Shown here one piece after another: positions 34,883 through 41,918 of a DNA stretch of 64,000 bases (the stretch's first letter is position 1; each line of letters opens with the position of its first letter). The position numbers and the translations under genes were made by a program. The stretch spans positions 1,178,001 to 1,242,000 of the forward strand of contig NZ_JABMKV010000001.1 in NCBI RefSeq assembly GCF_013204825.1, read 5' to 3'. The notes under the pieces are model-generated. The model was not told the origin of the DNA and did not search any database. It was given only the letters and a program-made list of their open reading frames with translations. This DNA is from Pedobacter boryungensis. Lineage in GTDB: Bacteria; Bacteroidota; Bacteroidia; Sphingobacteriales; Sphingobacteriaceae.

Positions 34883-35020
34883 ACAGATAGCGAAAATAAT
34901 TTACATTACATTTCTTAAGCGCAATAGATAATAGCTTGTAGTTATAGTTCGTAAACGAGTAATACTATAATCAATAAAAAAATACGTAGTAGAAGAGCCA
35001 GTTCGCCGTCATCGGTTACA

Positions 35021-35078
35021 CCTCTCCTGCTTTCCATTTTATTCCGCTACGCTCTATGCTCACTCCAATCAGGTCTAT
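35021..35078. repeat. Dispersed ~57-bp element, copy 2
   Basis: CCTCTCCTGCTTTCCATTTT, then ATTCCGCTACGCT and CCAATCAGGTCT. Matches the reverse complement of 21664-21720 in block order and spacing with about a dozen differences. Confidence 0.6.
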
Positions 35079-35164
35079 TTAACAAATTTTCTTGCTACTA
35101 GTAAACAATACCAAGCTTATAAAAGAAACAAGTATGATACAAATAATAAATAATGCTTCATTAT

Positions 35165-35187
35165 TACGAAATATTCGTAGATTTACG
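35165..35187 (+). promoter_or_regulatory. BlaI-type composite operator over the -7 box, GLPGLI gene 1
   Basis: TACG (35165-68), 7 bases, CGTA (35176-79), 4 bases, TACG (35184-87). The first two half-sites form the perfect arms TACGAA/TTCGTA. The -7 box TAGATTTA (35178-35185) lies inside the CGTA-N4-TACG part, so binding would block RNA polymerase. Same layout at 36107 and 41855. Confidence 0.75.
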
Positions 35188-35207
35188 TAAACTTAATATT
35201 AACCATT

Positions 35208-36059
35208 ATGAAAATTCTTTTAACAACTAGCTTTGCAATTTTAATTAGTGTTATTTCTTTTGCCCAAAAACCTGATAATGTGTTGGCCAGAATAAAATAT
35301 AGTTTTATTCACGTAAGAGACACCACGCAAAAGAATAATCCCTATACTGAAAACATGTTATTGGTAATTGGTAAAAATGCATCAATTTATACCAGTTTAG
35401 ATAAATTAGAAAGAGATTTAGAACTACCAAAAGCTAAACGAGCTCCAGGATCGCCCTTTAAGCCTGTAAACCAAGTTGATATTTATTTCTTTGCTAAGGA
35501 AAATAAATTAGTTAGCAGAGAACGATTTATGAATGCCTATTATTTAATTAATGAGCCTTCTCAGCGTATCAATTGGAAAATTACAAAGGATACCACAAGC
35601 TTTAATGGCGTTCAATGCAAAAAGGCAACTACCACTTTTAAAGGAAGAAATTGGATTGTATGGTATGCGCCAGAACTACCGTTTCAAAGTGGACCATGGA
35701 AATTAAATGGACTTCCAGGATTAATTATACAAGCTAGCGATAATAAAAATGAGGTTCAATTTTTATTTAATGGAATCGATAATTTAAAAAGAGAAAACCT
35801 AAGTGCTGAGGAGTTAGAATTAGCAAAAGCGTACGATAAAAGTATTTTCTTTAGTCATGAAATCGCATTGCAAAAAGATGCTAAAGAAACAACAAGAGTT
35901 GAATATGATAAAATTCAAGATCTATTTAAAAAGGACCCAAAAGGTTTTATAGCTGCTGCATCAGGCGTACCAAGAGATAAAGTATTTATTGGAGGTAGTA
36001 CAACAGGTGTTAGTCATAACACCATCAATAATCCAATTGAATTGCCAGAAAAGAAATAA
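35208..36059 (+). CDS. GLPGLI family protein 1
   Basis: A 283-residue exported protein: signal peptide (MKILLTTSFAILISVISFAQ), then the GLPGLI family core. The diagnostic stretch is WYAPELPFQSGPWKLNGLPG followed by LIIQASD near residues 150-175, with an upstream C-x-K-A motif (GVQCKKATTTFKGRNW). GLPGLI proteins are periplasmic or outer-membrane-associated and of unknown function; they commonly neighbour TonB-type barrels. It shares layout and C-terminal motif (NNPIELPEK) with the next gene, a tandem duplicate. The gene carries the composite operator in its promoter and is expected to be repressed by the BlaI-type protein at 41490. Confidence 0.9.
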   Translation: MKILLTTSFAILISVISFAQKPDNVLARIKYSFIHVRDTTQKNNPYTENMLLVIGKNASIYTSLDKLERDLELPKAKRAPGSPFKPVNQVDIYFFAKENKLVSRERFMNAYYLINEPSQRINWKITKDTTSFNGVQCKKATTTFKGRNWIVWYAPELPFQSGPWKLNGLPGLIIQASDNKNEVQFLFNGIDNLKRENLSAEELELAKAYDKSIFFSHEIALQKDAKETTRVEYDKIQDLFKKDPKGFIAAASGVPRDKVFIGGSTTGVSHNTINNPIELPEKK

Positions 36060-36106
36060 TTACTATTAAGATATATAGTTAAAATATGTTAAATCATTTT
36101 ATTTAT

Positions 36107-36129
36107 TACGAAATTATCGTAGAATTACG
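36107..36129 (+). promoter_or_regulatory. BlaI-type composite operator over the -7 box, GLPGLI gene 2
   Basis: TACG (36107-10), 7 bases, CGTA (36118-21), 4 bases, TACG (36126-29); identical spacing to the site at 35165. The presumed -7 element TAGAATTA (36120-36127) is covered. A separate site in front of the second gene shows it has its own regulated promoter. Confidence 0.75.
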
Positions 36130-36160
36130 AATAATTAATTGACATAAACCAAAGAACAAC

Positions 36161-37117
36161 ATGAAAACACTTTTCACTACACTTTTAGCTTTTACAATAA
36201 GTTCAATTGCATTAGCTCAAAATCCTGACAAAGCCCTAGCTAGGGTAAAATACACATTTAGTCATATTCAAGATACTACACAGCGAGATAAACCATTTAC
36301 CGAAAATATGTTGTTGGTAATTGGAAAAAATGCTTCTGTATTTACGAGTTATGATAAAATCAATCGTGAACTAGAAACGAAAAAGCAAATTCAAGAGCAA
36401 ATGAAAAACCAAGCAGGTAGTGGTACTTTTAGTATAAAAATTGATGGCGCACCACCAAAATCATCTAGTTTATTAGATTATTTCTTTTTTGCAAAGGAAA
36501 ACAAATTCATAACTAAAGAACGACTGTTCAACAATTACTTAATAGAAGAAGAAGCACCAAAAATAAATTGGAAACTTTCAAAAGATACCCTTAGTTTTTC
36601 AGGCGTAAAATGTCAAAAAGCTACTGCATATTTTAAAGGTAGAAATTGGATTGCTTGGTATGCTACCGATCTGCCATTTCAAAGTGGACCATGGAAATTA
36701 AATGGCTTACCTGGATTAATTATTGAAGCTTATGACGAGAAAAAAGAAGTTCAATTTCTATTTGCAGGAATGGATAATGTTATACCAGAAGAAGCAAAAG
36801 CAGTCGAAAAAGATGGACTACCTAAAATCATAGGCCCAAATGGCTCAAATAGTGTGGTAAATATTATGGGTATGGATGGTAATTCATATTTAGGTAGCGA
36901 AATTAAACTTCCAGCAGACGCAATTAAAACGACTAGAAAAGAAATTGACAAATTAAAAGAAGCAAGAGATAAGGATCCTCAAGGTTTTATGAATGCACAA
37001 ATGGCAGCGCAGGGTGTACAAATGGGCGTATCTCGCAGTTTCAAAGTTGCGTCTAATATTCCAATTACTAACAAAGTAGTGATCAACAACCCAATAGAGC
37101 TACCAGAAAATAAATAG
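36161..37117 (+). CDS. GLPGLI family protein 2
   Basis: A 318-residue paralogue of the preceding gene: signal peptide (MKTLFTTLLAFTISSIALAQ), opening NPDKALARVKYTFSHIQDTT, core WYATDLPFQSGPWKLNGLPG with LIIEAYD, and C-terminal NNPIELPENK. Compared with copy 1 it carries two insertions, a Gly/Ser/Lys segment near residues 70-95 and a Gly/Asn/Ser-rich segment near 225-250. Function unknown. Followed within 115 bases by the outer-membrane barrel gene, with a long hairpin between them. Confidence 0.9.
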   Translation: MKTLFTTLLAFTISSIALAQNPDKALARVKYTFSHIQDTTQRDKPFTENMLLVIGKNASVFTSYDKINRELETKKQIQEQMKNQAGSGTFSIKIDGAPPKSSSLLDYFFFAKENKFITKERLFNNYLIEEEAPKINWKLSKDTLSFSGVKCQKATAYFKGRNWIAWYATDLPFQSGPWKLNGLPGLIIEAYDEKKEVQFLFAGMDNVIPEEAKAVEKDGLPKIIGPNGSNSVVNIMGMDGNSYLGSEIKLPADAIKTTRKEIDKLKEARDKDPQGFMNAQMAAQGVQMGVSRSFKVASNIPITNKVVINNPIELPENK

Positions 37118-37149
37118 CTCCAGTAATTCCTAACCAAACAAACACACAA

Positions 37150-37211
37150 ATGAAACTATCATGATTTTCACAAGTCGTTAGGCTATGATATCAAAAACAT
37201 GATAGTTTCAT
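37150..37211 (+). promoter_or_regulatory. Perfect 14-base inverted repeat before the barrel gene
   Basis: ATGAAACTATCATG (37150-37163) and CATGATAGTTTCAT (37198-37211) with a 34-base loop. The right arm ends 20 bases before the start codon at 37232. It could act as attenuator, RNA-processing site or operator. No T run follows, so a simple terminator is unlikely. Confidence 0.6.
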
Positions 37212-37231
37212 CATCAAAAAATAATAAACAG

Positions 37232-39883
37232 ATGAAAAAGTATTATATAATTACTTTGCTCTTCTTTTTAGTGGGCATTGCATCCGCCTATGCGCAAAAA
37301 CAGCTAAAAGGAAAAGTGAAAGATGCTAAAGGTGCACCTATACTATCTGCAAGTATTAATTTAAAAGATGTAACAGGTAACATTTTAAGCTTTACGAGAA
37401 CCAATGATAAGGGCGAGTACACTTTATCTTTTTCTGAAGAAAACAAAGGTTTAACAGTTGAGGCGACAAGCATAGGTTATACAAGGAAAGCAATTGAAAT
37501 TACAGACCTCAACAAAAGTTACGATTTAATTTTACAGGAAAGCGAAACCACTCTTAAAACTGTGGAAGTTAAAAATAAGCCAACACTCACTTTAAATGGT
37601 GATACTTTAAACTATAAAACATCTGATTTTGCGGATAAACAAGACAGGAGTATTGGGGATGTATTGAGAAAAATGCCAGGTATTACTGTAGAAGAAAATG
37701 GAAAAGTGAGTTATAATGGAAAACCAATTTCGGCCTTGTATATTGATGGAGACAATGTTTTAGATGATAAATATTCTATTGGCACTAAAAGTATTCCGCA
37801 TGGAGCAGTTGATAAAGTACAGGTAATAGAAAAAGACCAACCAATTAAAATGTTGCGAAAAAACAACATGAGCGAGGATGTAGCCTTAAATTTAGTGATC
37901 AAAGAAGAAGCGAAAATTAAAGTAATGGGAGATATTAAAGCTGGGGCTGGAACTCCTAATAGGTTTGATGGAAATGCCAATGCGATGCTATTTAAGAAAA
38001 AAGCAAAGTTCATTAACAACATTAAAGGAAACAATATTGGTGTTGACCCAGGTATAGATTTAACTTCTTTTTTTGGTGGAAATAATGGCAATGACAAACC
38101 TAGTAGTTTTCTTTCTGCTGGTGCTGCTGGTGTACCTACCCTACCTCAAAAAAGAACACTTTTTAATAGCGCTGGCTTAGCAAATTTGAACAATCTTTAC
38201 AAATTTAGTGAGGATTTGCAGATAAGAGCGAACATCTCTTATTTATATGATCAGCGAGACCAGCAGTATAGTAAGTTTTCTGAAACTTATTTATCTGGAC
38301 AAACAATCACATATAATGAACTTCAAGAGAATGCGATTAACCCACAGAAATTACAGGCTAAATTCAACGTACTCGCAAATGCAGATAAGTATTATTTCAA
38401 TGATAATTTAACCGTTAATTACGGTACAACGAGAACAAATTCTGGAGTTGTAACTAACGGCATTGGTGCAAATCAATTCTTAAAACAAGAAAATTTCGAT
38501 ATTTCTAATGAATTGAATTACAGAAAAAAGCTTAAATCTGATAATACATTTAACTTTTATTCCTTCATCAGTAAATTAACGCAACCAGAAGTTTTAACGA
38601 TTAATCCTGGATTAAATGAAGCAATTTTAAATAATGGAAATCCGTATGCAGGATTAAACCAGTACGTTAAATTACCAACTTTATACACAAATAACTATAC
38701 CTCTTTTGCATTTGTAGGCAATAAATTTACTCAAACTTACAGGTTGGGATTTAATGTTCAGCAGCATGAATTAAATTCAGAATTATATCGTGTTCAAAAT
38801 AATCAGACTACAGAATTAGTTTCTTCGCAAATGACCAACAATTTAGATTGGCTTAAAACGAAACTATATACTGATGCAACTTATGAATATAACTTTGGGA
38901 AATTTAAAGCAAGTTTAGGATTACCAATTAGTTATAACCTAATTAATTATGAAGACAAAGCAAAAGATTTGGACAAAAGTTTAGATAAGTTTTTTGTAAA
39001 TCCATCTTTAAGTGTAAAATATCAAACAGGAATTGAGAATTATGTTACAGCCAATTATTCTTTTAATAATAATTTAGGTGGAATTGATGATATTTATCGT
39101 GGTACCATTTTAAAAAATTATCGTTCACTTTTTGCAAACGATGCACCAATCTCGGAAAGAAAATCACAAAATATTGGGGCAGCTTTTAGTTTTAGGAAAG
39201 CAATGCAGATGTTTTTCTTTAATTTAAATGCTAATTACTCAACATCAACGGTAAACACCATTTCTTCTTACACGATTAGCAATTCAATACAACAAAGAAT
39301 CGTTTTGCCTTATGTGAATGACATGAATAGTTTATCGTTTAGTGCTAATGCTAGTAAATATCTTTTTAATATTAGAAGTACAATAAATGCTGGCGTTGGT
39401 TTTAACCAAAGCACCTTTGAGCAATTACAAAACAATGAATTATTGCCATTTACATCTCAAAGCACTACTTACAATGTTGGTCTAGATTCTAAGATAAATA
39501 ACTTTATTAATTGGTCTTATAACGCAACTTATTCAATAAGCACGAATAAAACATCGAAAATAAATGCTATTAAAAACAATAATCAACAGTTAAGACAACA
39601 ATCTTCGATTACTGCAACAGCATTTAAAAGTGTGTTTATGACCTTATCTGCAGAACATATATTTACCCATCAATCTACCCAACCAGACTTAAAATATATT
39701 TTCGCTGATTTCAACATGAGATATAAATTCCAAAAACTAAAAACAGACTTAGAATTTGGAATAACCAATTTAGCGAATATTAAAAAGTTTGAAGCTAATT
39801 ATCTTTCTGCAAACTCTTTCTCATCAGGCACATATTATATTCCTGGTCGAGTTGCAATGATGAAAGCTACATTTAGTTTTTAG
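37232..39883 (+). CDS. Outer-membrane beta-barrel protein, TonB-receptor-like
   Basis: Start placed at the ATG at 37232, giving 883 residues beginning with the signal peptide (MKKYYIITLLFFLVGIASAYA); the open frame extends 33 bases upstream into the inverted repeat. A carboxypeptidase-regulatory-like domain (QLKGKVKDAKGAPILSASI) covers about 22-105, a plug-like domain about 115-230 (IGDVLRKMPGITVEENGKVS, YIDGDNVLDDKYSIG, VQVIEKDQPIKML), then a barrel ending in Phe (MKATFSF). It lacks a clear TonB box and belongs to the outer membrane beta-barrel family often next to GLPGLI genes. May receive or move the substrate handled by the GLPGLI proteins. A terminator follows. Confidence 0.9.
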   Translation: MKKYYIITLLFFLVGIASAYAQKQLKGKVKDAKGAPILSASINLKDVTGNILSFTRTNDKGEYTLSFSEENKGLTVEATSIGYTRKAIEITDLNKSYDLILQESETTLKTVEVKNKPTLTLNGDTLNYKTSDFADKQDRSIGDVLRKMPGITVEENGKVSYNGKPISALYIDGDNVLDDKYSIGTKSIPHGAVDKVQVIEKDQPIKMLRKNNMSEDVALNLVIKEEAKIKVMGDIKAGAGTPNRFDGNANAMLFKKKAKFINNIKGNNIGVDPGIDLTSFFGGNNGNDKPSSFLSAGAAGVPTLPQKRTLFNSAGLANLNNLYKFSEDLQIRANISYLYDQRDQQYSKFSETYLSGQTITYNELQENAINPQKLQAKFNVLANADKYYFNDNLTVNYGTTRTNSGVVTNGIGANQFLKQENFDISNELNYRKKLKSDNTFNFYSFISKLTQPEVLTINPGLNEAILNNGNPYAGLNQYVKLPTLYTNNYTSFAFVGNKFTQTYRLGFNVQQHELNSELYRVQNNQTTELVSSQMTNNLDWLKTKLYTDATYEYNFGKFKASLGLPISYNLINYEDKAKDLDKSLDKFFVNPSLSVKYQTGIENYVTANYSFNNNLGGIDDIYRGTILKNYRSLFANDAPISERKSQNIGAAFSFRKAMQMFFFNLNANYSTSTVNTISSYTISNSIQQRIVLPYVNDMNSLSFSANASKYLFNIRSTINAGVGFNQSTFEQLQNNELLPFTSQSTTYNVGLDSKINNFINWSYNATYSISTNKTSKINAIKNNNQQLRQQSSITATAFKSVFMTLSAEHIFTHQSTQPDLKYIFADFNMRYKFQKLKTDLEFGITNLANIKKFEANYLSANSFSSGTYYIPGRVAMMKATFSF

Positions 39884-39930
39884 ATCTAAGAGAAAATAAT
39901 AAAACCAAGTATATAGTTAGTAATTAGTTG

Positions 39931-39964
39931 AAGGCCCTGTAACTTTTAGTTAGGGGCTTTTTTA
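39931..39964 (+). terminator. Terminator of the GLPGLI-barrel unit
   Basis: AAGGCCCTGTAACT / AGTTAGGGGCTT with a short T loop, followed by TTTTTT; lies between the convergent barrel and M56 genes. Confidence 0.75.
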
Positions 39965-39988
39965 TGATAATTGAATCATGGATTAGTA

Positions 39989-41482
39989 TTACTTTATTCT
40001 ACTGCTTTTACCCACAACAGTAATCTCAGCCATCTTATCTTCCTGCTTCTTTACAGTTATATTTTTAATTTGATCTGGATTGATTTTATTGAATTCCTTT
40101 TCATCAACCTTTTTACCATCAAGCACATACAAAAATTTAATAGTCGATTTAACGGTATCTACTTTTTGACCATTCCTACTCCTAAAAAAAGTTTTTTGAG
40201 CCTCCGAAGTTTTAGGTATACTAAAACCCATAACTGTTACATTCGTAGCATTTATGGGAGTAATATTAACATCATTTACAGCTACGTTAGGTCCAATTGC
40301 TGTCCCTTTTAGTTTAATTTTAATATCTTCAATCGAACTAGGATTATCACTTTTTAAAGCAAATCCTTCCACAATTTTTTCATCACCCTGCTGTAACCCT
40401 AAGTTTGTAGAATCAGTGTTAATAGAGATCGTTTTTATAAAAATAAAATTCTGGAGCTTATGAGCTGTATCAATAGTAATACTTATCGGTTTTCTTTCAT
40501 TTATCTTCTTTTTGCTTACAACCTTTTGAGTAGTTAAAGTTAAATCTGGTGCTGATTTCTCCATTAGATTTGCGTTTATTAAAACCCTTTCAAGAGGCAT
40601 TAAATGTTGCTTAACTTCTTTTTTAGAAATAGTAAATGCTAACGATGTAATTAAGAGTGCAGGCAAAATTAATGCATATATCACTAATTTTTTAGGCGAT
40701 GAACGTTTTGCATTCATCATTTTAATTCTCTTTTTTAAATCGGATAAGTTAAAATTATTAACCAAAGCTACACTTGGTTGCAAACTACCAACTCCTAACA
40801 AACTATATTGATAAGATTTTTTATCGATTCCTTTTTTTACAATTCTAGCATCAGTAATAAATTCAATGTTCTCTTTAATTGCTTTTTTCATCAACCAAAC
40901 ACCAGGATTAAACCAATAAAAAACCACACTAATTTCAGCTAAAATGATATCAAGCGTATGCCATTCTTTCACATGGATTTGTTCATGAGCCAAAATAGTA
41001 TCCAATTCATCAGTCGAGTGTATTTCTGGATTTACATAAACCGTTTGCCAAAAGGAAAATGGACTTACTTGTTCATCTAAAATTCTAACTGAAAGATCTT
41101 TAACTGAACCAGGTTTTGATTTCTGGTGTACGCGGTAAAGTGAAATAAATTGAGCAATTAATCTTAATGCCATAAAAACGACGCCAACATAGAATAGAAT
41201 AAGTATAATTTTCCAATAATCTAGTATTACATTATTCTGAATCAATGCATTCATATCTACCTTTGGTACTAATGCAGCTACATTTGGATTAACTTGTTCT
41301 TGTCTGTGAAAAAAATCGGTAAGATTAATAAAAGGATAAATCGTAGAAAAAATTATTCCTAATACTAAAAAAATACGATTGATGGTATAAAAGGTGAGTC
41401 GACGTAAAACAAGATAATAAGCTGCAGCAAAAAGCAATAGCACCAAATTAATTTTCAATAAAATCAACAACAAAGCTGGCAT
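39989..41482 (-). CDS. M56 family (BlaR1-like) membrane metallopeptidase
   Basis: ATG at 41480-41482 gives 497 residues beginning MPALLLILLKINLVLLL as is usual for the family; the frame is open to a TTG 27 bases upstream that overlaps the repressor gene. Several transmembrane helices lie in residues 1-120; the zinc site HEQIH is near 166-170 with a downstream Glu in LAEISVVFYWFNP. A fourth helix (ALILPALLITSLAFTI) precedes a periplasmic tail of about 210 residues. The tail ends in a TonB-plug-like segment (YVLDGKKVDEKEFNKINPDQ, then IKNITVKK). By analogy with BlaR1, a periplasmic signal should trigger the protease to inactivate the BlaI-type repressor. The ligand is unknown. Confidence 0.9.
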   Translation of the reverse strand: MPALLLILLKINLVLLLFAAAYYLVLRRLTFYTINRIFLVLGIIFSTIYPFINLTDFFHRQEQVNPNVAALVPKVDMNALIQNNVILDYWKIILILFYVGVVFMALRLIAQFISLYRVHQKSKPGSVKDLSVRILDEQVSPFSFWQTVYVNPEIHSTDELDTILAHEQIHVKEWHTLDIILAEISVVFYWFNPGVWLMKKAIKENIEFITDARIVKKGIDKKSYQYSLLGVGSLQPSVALVNNFNLSDLKKRIKMMNAKRSSPKKLVIYALILPALLITSLAFTISKKEVKQHLMPLERVLINANLMEKSAPDLTLTTQKVVSKKKINERKPISITIDTAHKLQNFIFIKTISINTDSTNLGLQQGDEKIVEGFALKSDNPSSIEDIKIKLKGTAIGPNVAVNDVNITPINATNVTVMGFSIPKTSEAQKTFFRSRNGQKVDTVKSTIKFLYVLDGKKVDEKEFNKINPDQIKNITVKKQEDKMAEITVVGKSSRIK

Positions 41483-41489
41483 AGCTAAT

Positions 41490-41852
41490 CTATTTATCAG
41501 GGTTCTCAATCAAATTGATAATCTCTTTCAATTCTTCTGCACTTATCTTTTTATCCTTAGCAAAAAAAGCAACTAGTTCCTTATAAGAACTTTGAAAATA
41601 GTTATCTACAAACCCAGTCATAAAACGCTTTTTATAATCAGTTTCTTTCACTTTTGCACTATAACGATAGGCATTTGCAAATTTTTCGCTTTTTAAAAAT
41701 CCCTTACGTTCTAGATTTTTAATAGTTGATGCTAAAGTGGTATACGGAGGTTTTGGGTCTGACAAGGCATCCATAAAGTCTTTTATAAATCCTTTTCCAA
41801 CTTGCCAAACTGCAAGCATTGCTTCTTCCTCTTGTAATGTTAACTTTTCCAT
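41490..41852 (-). CDS. BlaI/MecI/CopY family transcriptional repressor
   Basis: A 120-residue winged-helix repressor: LTLQEEEAMLAVWQVGKGFI, PPYTTLASTIKNLERKGFLK (recognition helix and wing lead-in) and SAKVKETDYKKRFMTGFVDN with the dimerisation tail, all in family order. It forms the usual pair with the downstream M56 protease (8 bases apart if the protease starts at 41482). Its own start codon lies two bases from a copy of the composite operator, so autorepression is expected. The same operator precedes both GLPGLI genes, which are therefore its likely targets. Confidence 0.93.
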   Translation of the reverse strand: MEKLTLQEEEAMLAVWQVGKGFIKDFMDALSDPKPPYTTLASTIKNLERKGFLKSEKFANAYRYSAKVKETDYKKRFMTGFVDNYFQSSYKELVAFFAKDKKISAEELKEIINLIENPDK

Positions 41853-41854
41853 AT

Positions 41855-41877
41855 TACGATTGTATCGTAAACTTACG
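41855..41877 (-). promoter_or_regulatory. BlaI-type composite operator at the repressor gene's own promoter
   Basis: TACG (41855-58), 7 bases, CGTA (41866-69), 4 bases, TACG (41874-77) on the plus strand, the same layout as at 35165 and 36107. On the minus strand TAAGTTTA between the inner half-sites is the -7 box, so the transcript would have a leader of under 25 bases. Confidence 0.75.
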
Positions 41878-41918
41878 ACAATGGCGTTAAAAAAACAAAT
41901 TTTGTAATACTTAGAATA

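Follow-up and report, generated by a model that had tools for sequence, protein, structure and literature searches.

The BlaI-BlaR1 and MecI-MecR1 systems of Staphylococcus aureus and Bacillus licheniformis combine a winged-helix repressor of family PF03965 with an adjoining gene for an M56 metallopeptidase, and operators are located both at blaI and at the target promoters. The operator is [A/G]NATTACA[A/T]NTGTA.. (PMC5341023), and the S. aureus repressor BlaI is cut by BlaR1 between Asn101 and Phe102 (PMC9834060). DNA affinity purification sequencing (DAP-seq) of BlaI_0696 and BlaI_1845 from Clostridium thermocellum gave four-protomer sites composed of two inverted-repeat pairs (PMC8457756). 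A locus of similar composition is described here for a window of 64,000 nucleotides from Pedobacter boryungensis (contig NZ_JABMKV010000001.1, positions 1,178,001 to 1,242,000; positions below are counted from the first letter of this stretch), in which a BlaI/MecI-type repressor gene, an M56 gene, and two GLPGLI family genes are accompanied by three copies of one composite sequence. These sites are very probably operators of the repressor encoded at 41490-41852, with tandem dyads placed over the -7 box, and would control blaI-M56 together with the GLPGLI and outer-membrane-type genes; binding, repression, cleavage, and signal are all predictions from sequence comparison.

The layout is of a known BlaI type; the half-site, the spacing, the M56 partner without a recognized sensor, and the target genes set the present system apart as a variant. 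The Firmicute operator quoted above contrasts with TACGA-N5-TCGTA in Pedobacter. Its TACA/TGTA core is absent here; that core is a trait of the members studied rather than of the family at large, and C. thermocellum differs as well. TACA cores are present in the CopY and the mec/bla operators (PMC7253601 and PMC5341023). The C. thermocellum regulators share with the system predicted here the four-protomer layout, autoregulation, and a very small regulon; they differ in the half-sites (GTCTAT/GACTAT), the spacing, and the response to beta-lactams, and no GLPGLI or barrel targets are named in the available portion of PMC8457756. CopY/CopR, from a related repressor family, has the operator RNYKACANNTGTMRNY (PMC7253601), whose outer bases are fitted by AACTA-N6-TAGTT of Pedobacter paralogues in our own alignment. 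CopY/CopR differs in being copper-responsive and in having a 16-bp (base pair) even dyad with other core letters than the 15-bp Pedobacter dyad. No literature joining GLPGLI with BlaI was found, and none on such a BlaI operator in Bacteroidetes, Bacteroidota, or Pedobacter was apparent, in searches that covered few subscription papers; PMC12578637 and PMC12596196 turned out to be unrelated to the present system.

Three Sites in the Window and the Genome

An earlier sequence-only reading of the window had placed the pattern TACG-N7-CGTA-N4-TACG at 35165-35187, 36107-36129, and 41855-41877. All three occurrences are exact and equally spaced, and the -7 boxes quoted in that reading are found at the sites. 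The shared plus-strand orientation is correct for the letters, but blaI is encoded on the minus strand, and its site is therefore inverted relative to its own gene. When the 3.5 Mb genome was scanned with the 23-base pattern, three exact matches were obtained, all in the cluster, compared with 0.23 predicted from the base composition of the window and 0 for the reversed control. Each of them fronts one of the two GLPGLI genes or blaI, as had been proposed, and the pattern is not frequent outside promoters. Three extra rows appear genome-wide when one mismatch is allowed, one of which is the blaI site read in reverse. Within the window five matches are found at two or fewer mismatches; this count is reached by 3 of 100 shuffles, so that the exact form alone is striking. 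The shorter CGTA-N4-TACG occurs three times in the window (0.19 expected; 0 shuffles reach 3). Genome-wide it occurs at 15 places (30 rows on both strands) versus 57 per strand for the reversed control, and without enrichment the short palindrome alone is not special.

The operator of GLPGLI gene 1 spans 35165..35198 (+) and contains the dyad TACGA-N5-TCGTA at 35165-35179 and a third half-site, TACG, at 35184-35187; the fourth half-site is eroded. The operator of GLPGLI gene 2 spans 36107..36140 (+), with the dyad at 36107-36121, the third half-site at 36126-36129, and the fourth again eroded. The blaI operator at 41855..41888 (-) consists of a proximal dyad at 41855-41869 (TACGATACAATCGTA) and a distal dyad at 41874-41888, the outer half-site of which is AACG (3 of 4 bases). 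The half-site register of the window operators was set by the aligned 34-mer of the orthologue loci. An 8-bp box lies within the dyad junction of the GLPGLI gene 1 site (TAGATTTA, 35178..35185, +) and of the blaI site (TAAGTTTA, 41868..41875, -), and that of GLPGLI gene 2 (TAGAATTA, 36120-36127, +) is inside the operator at 36107..36140. We take these boxes to be the Bacteroidota -7 promoter element, for which the consensus is TAnnTTTG.

Operator Anatomy and Conservation

The predicted binding unit is the 15-bp dyad TACGA-N5-TCGTA. Two dyads 4 bp apart make up the predicted complete operator of 34 bp and four half-sites. One outer half-site appears to be gone from each Pedobacter promoter, leaving one full dyad and one half-site, and the GLPGLI-type and blaI-type forms can thus be read as truncations of one symmetric 34-bp operator. 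The sequence-only reading had taken the inner CGTA-N4-TACG palindrome as the operator core; this segment is instead the dyad junction that bears the -7 box. All six exact N5 dyads in the P. boryungensis genome are intergenic and located 2-95 bp ahead of a gene start. Four exact N6 dyads are found, two in the promoter of the blaI paralogue L056 and two within open reading frames (ORFs), and the eight dyads with spacers of 2, 3, 9, or 10 are all inside ORFs.

Conservation was evaluated using 80 loci kept of 182 in a scan of species genomes, with BlaI identities of 70-98%; these loci were found via similarity to the window BlaI and are mutually related, so that the counts below are not independent events. 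The closest match is from Pedobacter planticolens (BlaI 98% identical). Half-sites 2, 3, and 4 are exact in 76 of the 80 blaI promoters when these are anchored on the tblastn start; the version anchored on ORF starts gives 60 of 80, some starts being called too far upstream. All four half-sites, TACG-N7-CGTA-N4-TACG-N7-CGTA, are complete in 17 of the 80, which are the Mucilaginibacter-type loci (L121-L137). The final half-site of the blaI operator ends 2-8 bases ahead of the ATG. Across loci the -7 box (positions 14-21 of the 34-mer) varies chiefly at its third and fourth places, and the window box TAGAATTA deviates at the fifth position too. A clear classical -33 TTTG is confined to blaI promoters of the Mucilaginibacter type, 11 of 17 of which have it at one place; a -33 box in a fixed position was not detected elsewhere.

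Upstream DNA was readable for 86 GLPGLI genes of these loci. Half-sites 1-3 are exact in 57, a near-complete four-half-site operator is present in five (L098, L099, L100, L103, and L107), and a partial operator is present in seven. A GLPGLI promoter could be read in 57 loci, and every one of these has at least one that bears the operator: 52 by the promoter scan, and five (L062, L065, L073, L075, and L086) in which the exact site falls within an ORF that was called too long. The operator was found ahead of none of 198 M56, barrel, H166, and H168 genes in the same loci; for other ORFs the count is 16 of 1146, including some that lie opposite blaI across a shared intergenic region.

Sites are also found at genes unlinked to blaI. 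In Pedobacter metabolipauper (L206) a site precedes a GLPGLI gene, and in Pedobacter cryotolerans (L204) a GLPGLI-barrel pair, in each case on another contig or distant from blaI. Three Mucilaginibacter genomes (L196-L198) have the full four-half-site operator ahead of a gene for a barrel protein of 941-942 residues, and one Chitinophagaceae genome (L203) has it ahead of a barrel gene. In Hufsiella a second pair of blaI and M56 genes (L201) bears a site. Of the barrel proteins scanned, those of L196, L203, and L258 match OMP_b-brl_3 and CarboxypepD_reg. The proposed link to GLPGLI genes holds for the two genes in the window; it does not extend to a general rule, since two of the three GLPGLI genes above the cut-off in the genome bear a site, nor is it restricted to GLPGLI genes, since in Mucilaginibacter an outer-membrane barrel gene bears the site.

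Paralogous Repressors and Co-occurrence

Operators of paralogous repressors were compared using 13 hand-picked members of the 80 orthologue loci, the window, L201, and 58 paralogue rows (18 loci returned and 40 picked). The BlaI proteins with TACGA-N5 operators form one clade with support of 100/99. In this clade (PPYTTLAST and one PPYSTLAST) TACGA-N5-TCGTA is exact in 13 of 15 promoters and is matched at 9 of 10 bases in the other two. The clades with the helices PAYNTVSTVIRVLE and PAYNTVSTIIRILE have AACTA-N6-TAGTT at 10 of 10 bases in 16 of 16 and 18 of 19 of their own promoters, respectively, the sole miss (L227) being truncated upstream DNA. The same dyad is matched at 9 of 10 bases in five of six promoters of PPYNTISS repressors. 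PHYNSVAT repressors have TACTA-N6-TAGTA, exact in two cases and at 9 of 10 bases in L213, and the distant YTTTLK/YTSTLK repressors have TACGA-N6-TCGTA in five of five promoters; L242, on the same branch, is without it. No clear dyad of either type was found in the promoters of L222, L224, L237, L242, L245, and L246 themselves.

Two dyads per promoter are common. They are offset by 20 bp in all 16 PAYNTVSTV and all 5 PPYNTISSIV promoters, by 24 bp in all 4 YTTTLK promoters, and by 19 bp in the present clade, for the 11 of 14 promoters that have two dyads. Among the 19 PAYNTVSTII promoters, 12 have two dyads, at mixed offsets (20-29 bp and one of 61 bp). The dyad is thus kept while the junction length changes, which identifies the dyad as the unit and CGTA-N4-TACG as the junction. 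A functional inner palindrome would account for this segment being the part common to the GLPGLI and blaI sites. It was nevertheless dropped as the binding unit and is now considered highly improbable, because the L056-type paralogues keep both TACGA..TCGTA dyads at a changed distance, the AACTA and TACTA relatives have dyads in the same orientation, the 15 genomic copies are unenriched, and three N5 dyads that lack CGTA-N4-TACG also precede genes.

In the tree the L054 group, which has TACTA operators, comes out as sister of the TACGA-N5 clade, subject to a long-branch warning, and the order of operator change is tentatively AACTA-TACTA-TACGA. A one-residue rule, in which Thr in place of Asn in the recognition helix gives TACG, is not strict; L237, L245, and L244 have Thr and no TACGA dyad. 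At the level of base pairs, the paralogues illustrate how repressors within a single genome can come to differ in half-site and spacing under an unchanged tandem layout.

Because the distant paralogue L056 (contig C2) shares TACGA half-sites, cross-talk is possible. Were the window sites bound mainly by L056, the local BlaI would have another operator, and the TACGA half-site that fronts the L056 gene itself fits such an assignment. This is judged very unlikely. The L056 dyads have a 6-bp spacer and the 24-bp offset, and every window site has a 5-bp spacer. Moreover, among eight genomes that lack the orthologue and encode a BlaI of low identity (22-27%), no site is present in G007, G008, G010, G017, G029, and G032, and one each is present in G006 and G030, the latter a scar; of these eight, G008 (L240) is the one that was checked for the N6 operator, and it has it.

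Assignment to the local BlaI is also indicated by co-occurrence. Seventeen of 36 genomes of the genus encode the orthologue (at least 82% identity), and all 17 contain exact sites, 34 in total, compared with two matches to the reversed control pattern. Among the 19 genomes without the orthologue, two (G006 and G030) have one site each. A Fisher test on the 36 genomes gives p ~2e-8, uncorrected for relatedness. Of 23 genomes outside the genus, two have a single site each, in sequences that are unlike. In a set of 24 genomes an exact site is present in 23, a few of them chance-like, and the exception (G073) has a one-mismatch site.

The G006 site is judged to be a chance match; its dyad is imperfect (GCGTA) and lies ahead of an unrelated gene. 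The G030 site (L207:4242-4264, G030:C22) is located between genes for a DctA-type transporter and H168 on one side and the ribosomal L21/L27 genes on the other, and no blaI, M56, barrel, or GLPGLI genes are present there. To its left the sequence resembles the blaI side of relatives (local score of 57 over 60 bases versus L064), and to its right the sequence resembles their GLPGLI side (51 over 70 bases versus L072). By this comparison G030 carries the apparent scar of a lost blaI-M56-barrel-GLPGLI cassette with one hybrid operator left. As the two operators form direct chromosomal repeats, a deletion between them, the presumed step, would explain the hybrid.

The sites could alternatively be a promoter by-product, arising from a conserved -7 region whose flanks are symmetric by accident or from a promoter duplicated among paralogous GLPGLI genes; the -7 box does lie in the site, and the two GLPGLI promoters belong to similar paralogues. 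We regard this as highly improbable, as the outer half-sites extend beyond the -7 box, the blaI site is oriented oppositely with respect to its gene, full 34-bp sites occur at unlinked barrel genes, and the pattern is missing in 17 of the 19 genus genomes without the repressor.

A local regulon of blaI and the GLPGLI genes, as proposed in the sequence-only reading, is strongly supported by the conservation, the co-occurrence, the unlinked targets, and the different operators of the paralogues, with its anatomy corrected as described above. Besides the relatedness of the loci, several points weigh against it. The blaI sites are degenerate in four orthologue loci (L105, L112, L115, and L120), 17 of the 86 GLPGLI genes have no recognizable site (all in multi-GLPGLI loci), and in Hufsiella (L202) one complete set of four half-sites is not followed by any obvious gene. 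A distant BlaI of the same genome, L056, uses the same half-sites with a 6-bp spacer. Junction bases within the -7 box would be expected to be conserved anyway, and the GLPGLI and blaI sites are eroded at opposite outer half-sites. The M56 model described below is of middling confidence, and no solved structure was matched at E<=0.01 when the M56 sequence profile was compared with the PDB.

Proteins, Proposed Mechanism, and Further Targets

The repressor (41490..41852, -) has 120 residues, a recognition-helix region PPYTTLASTIKNLE, and a Penicillinase_R match (PF03965) of 92.4 bits against a cut-off of 22.6. It resembles the solved BlaI/MecI structures 1sd4 (with 1xsd; E=1.4e-7), 1sd6 (1.7e-7), and 1okr (2.9e-7). 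Its stretch LVaFFAkdk is aligned to S. aureus LVLN-FAKNE, the Asn101-Phe102 cleavage site, with Phe-Phe here; the Phe at the cleavage position is thus conserved, as in the BlaR1 and MecR1 systems.

The M56 membrane metallopeptidase (39989..41509, -; PF05569) contains HEQIH, and the HExxH motif is kept in 80 of 80 homologues. Its start is likely the ATG at 41482, which overlaps the blaI stop; the Met at residue 10 is invariant. The structural model has a predicted local distance difference test (pLDDT) score of 69.8 and is matched by Foldseek to five BlaR1 entries with E values of 6.1e-6 to 9.8e-4, S. aureus 8exq giving E=6.1e-6. Residues 325-455 of the tail have pLDDT <50 and are followed by a small terminal domain at 458-500. 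No penicillin-binding sensor domain was detected: the window protein and one Mucilaginibacter homologue match M56 alone in Pfam, and the window protein scores 34.2 bits against NCBIfam blaR1_generic (cut-off 400). SxxK and K[TS]G at any position, a loose criterion, are found in 20 of 80 homologues, which is of little information. A match of the model to the TonB receptor Cir (53 columns, E=1.5) is not claimed. Given a tail without a recognized sensor domain, the signal is unlikely to be a beta-lactam bound classically. The M56 protein of the L056-type paralogue (L261:2435-4438, G000:C2) has tail repeats like KKFNSPEWKDKMAKIE, quite unlike the window M56 tail.

GLPGLI proteins 1 (35208..36059, +, 283 residues) and 2 (36161..37117, +, 318 residues) match TIGR01200 with 154.3 and 157.8 bits, respectively (cut-off 50). 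We know of no established function for GLPGLI proteins. GLPGLI 2 is modelled (pLDDT 81.1) as a half-barrel whose best structural match is the PNGase F-II N-terminal domain (4r4z, Z 14.4, 3.1 A, 171 residues); comparison with LolA, LolB, and RseB gives Z values of 5.7-8.0, near the stated background of the tool. Downstream of GLPGLI 2 a CarboxypepD_reg outer-membrane-type protein is encoded at 37199..39883 (+; PF13620 above cut-off), the actual start of which may be the ATG at 37232. CarboxypepD_reg is its sole Pfam match, and no barrel domain was matched. The blaI and M56 genes point toward the GLPGLI genes in a convergent arrangement.

In the proposed mechanism a BlaI dimer would bind each 15-bp dyad, and two dimers would lie side by side on the 34-bp tandem operator. 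Since the 4-bp junction bears the -7 box, bound BlaI would exclude RNA polymerase and block initiation. Both the blaI-M56 operon itself and the convergently arranged GLPGLI and outer-membrane-type genes would in this way be kept repressed. On an envelope signal the M56 metallopeptidase would cleave BlaI and the three promoters would be released together, by analogy with S. aureus BlaR1. We infer from the gene set that it may be an envelope-response module. Unlike in the BlaR1/MecR1 systems, a penicillin-binding sensor is undetectable in the Pedobacter M56 protein, and the targets are GLPGLI and outer-membrane-type proteins. No gene for a beta-lactamase or a penicillin-binding protein is found behind the three composite sites of the genome, which front GLPGLI, GLPGLI, and BlaI-M56 instead. 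A beta-lactam role thus seems not to be obligatory for BlaI-M56 pairs, and part of the GLPGLI family gains, in a soil bacterium, a concrete candidate repressor, operator, and partner genes. A more speculative extension, which we hold to be rather doubtful, has three parts. At least two BlaI-type repressors per cell would read TACGA and be insulated by the spacer alone (5 versus 6 bp). The operator of the present clade would derive from the family type through stages that its sister clade still shows (AACTA-N6, TACTA-N6, TACGA-N5). The circuit would be an envelope sensor whose M56 protease, bearing a small terminal domain instead of a penicillin sensor, releases an outer-membrane barrel together with a LolA-like GLPGLI protein.

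The exact N5 dyads without a third half-site are located 95 bp before a 925-residue barrel gene (C2:461902, L258), 66 bp before a 197-residue gene (C1:1370063, L260), and 38 bp before a 209-residue gene (C4:77317, L259). Of 16 other near-full-length orthologues of the 925-residue barrel (at least 50% identity), one matches the dyad at 9 of 10 bases, and the split G030 copy matches it at 8. One near relative (L303) keeps the C1 dyad exactly, and the 209-residue gene is matched in only 2 other of 59 genomes. These dyads are possible single-dyad targets with weak conservation.

Two similar-looking small secreted-type genes of Hufsiella ginkgonis (L199:4014-4793 and L200:3153-3998) bear the operator and have no Pfam match; they are possible extra targets. 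In Mucilaginibacter flavidus (L205:3468-4343) two complete operators flank a 291-residue gene that has no Pfam match and lies immediately upstream of blaI; its protein contains YVLNGKK, like YVLDGKK in the window M56 tail. The segment at 34960-35090 of the window, between the ribosomal L21 gene and GLPGLI 1, appears odd and dispersed-repeat-like by eye alone.

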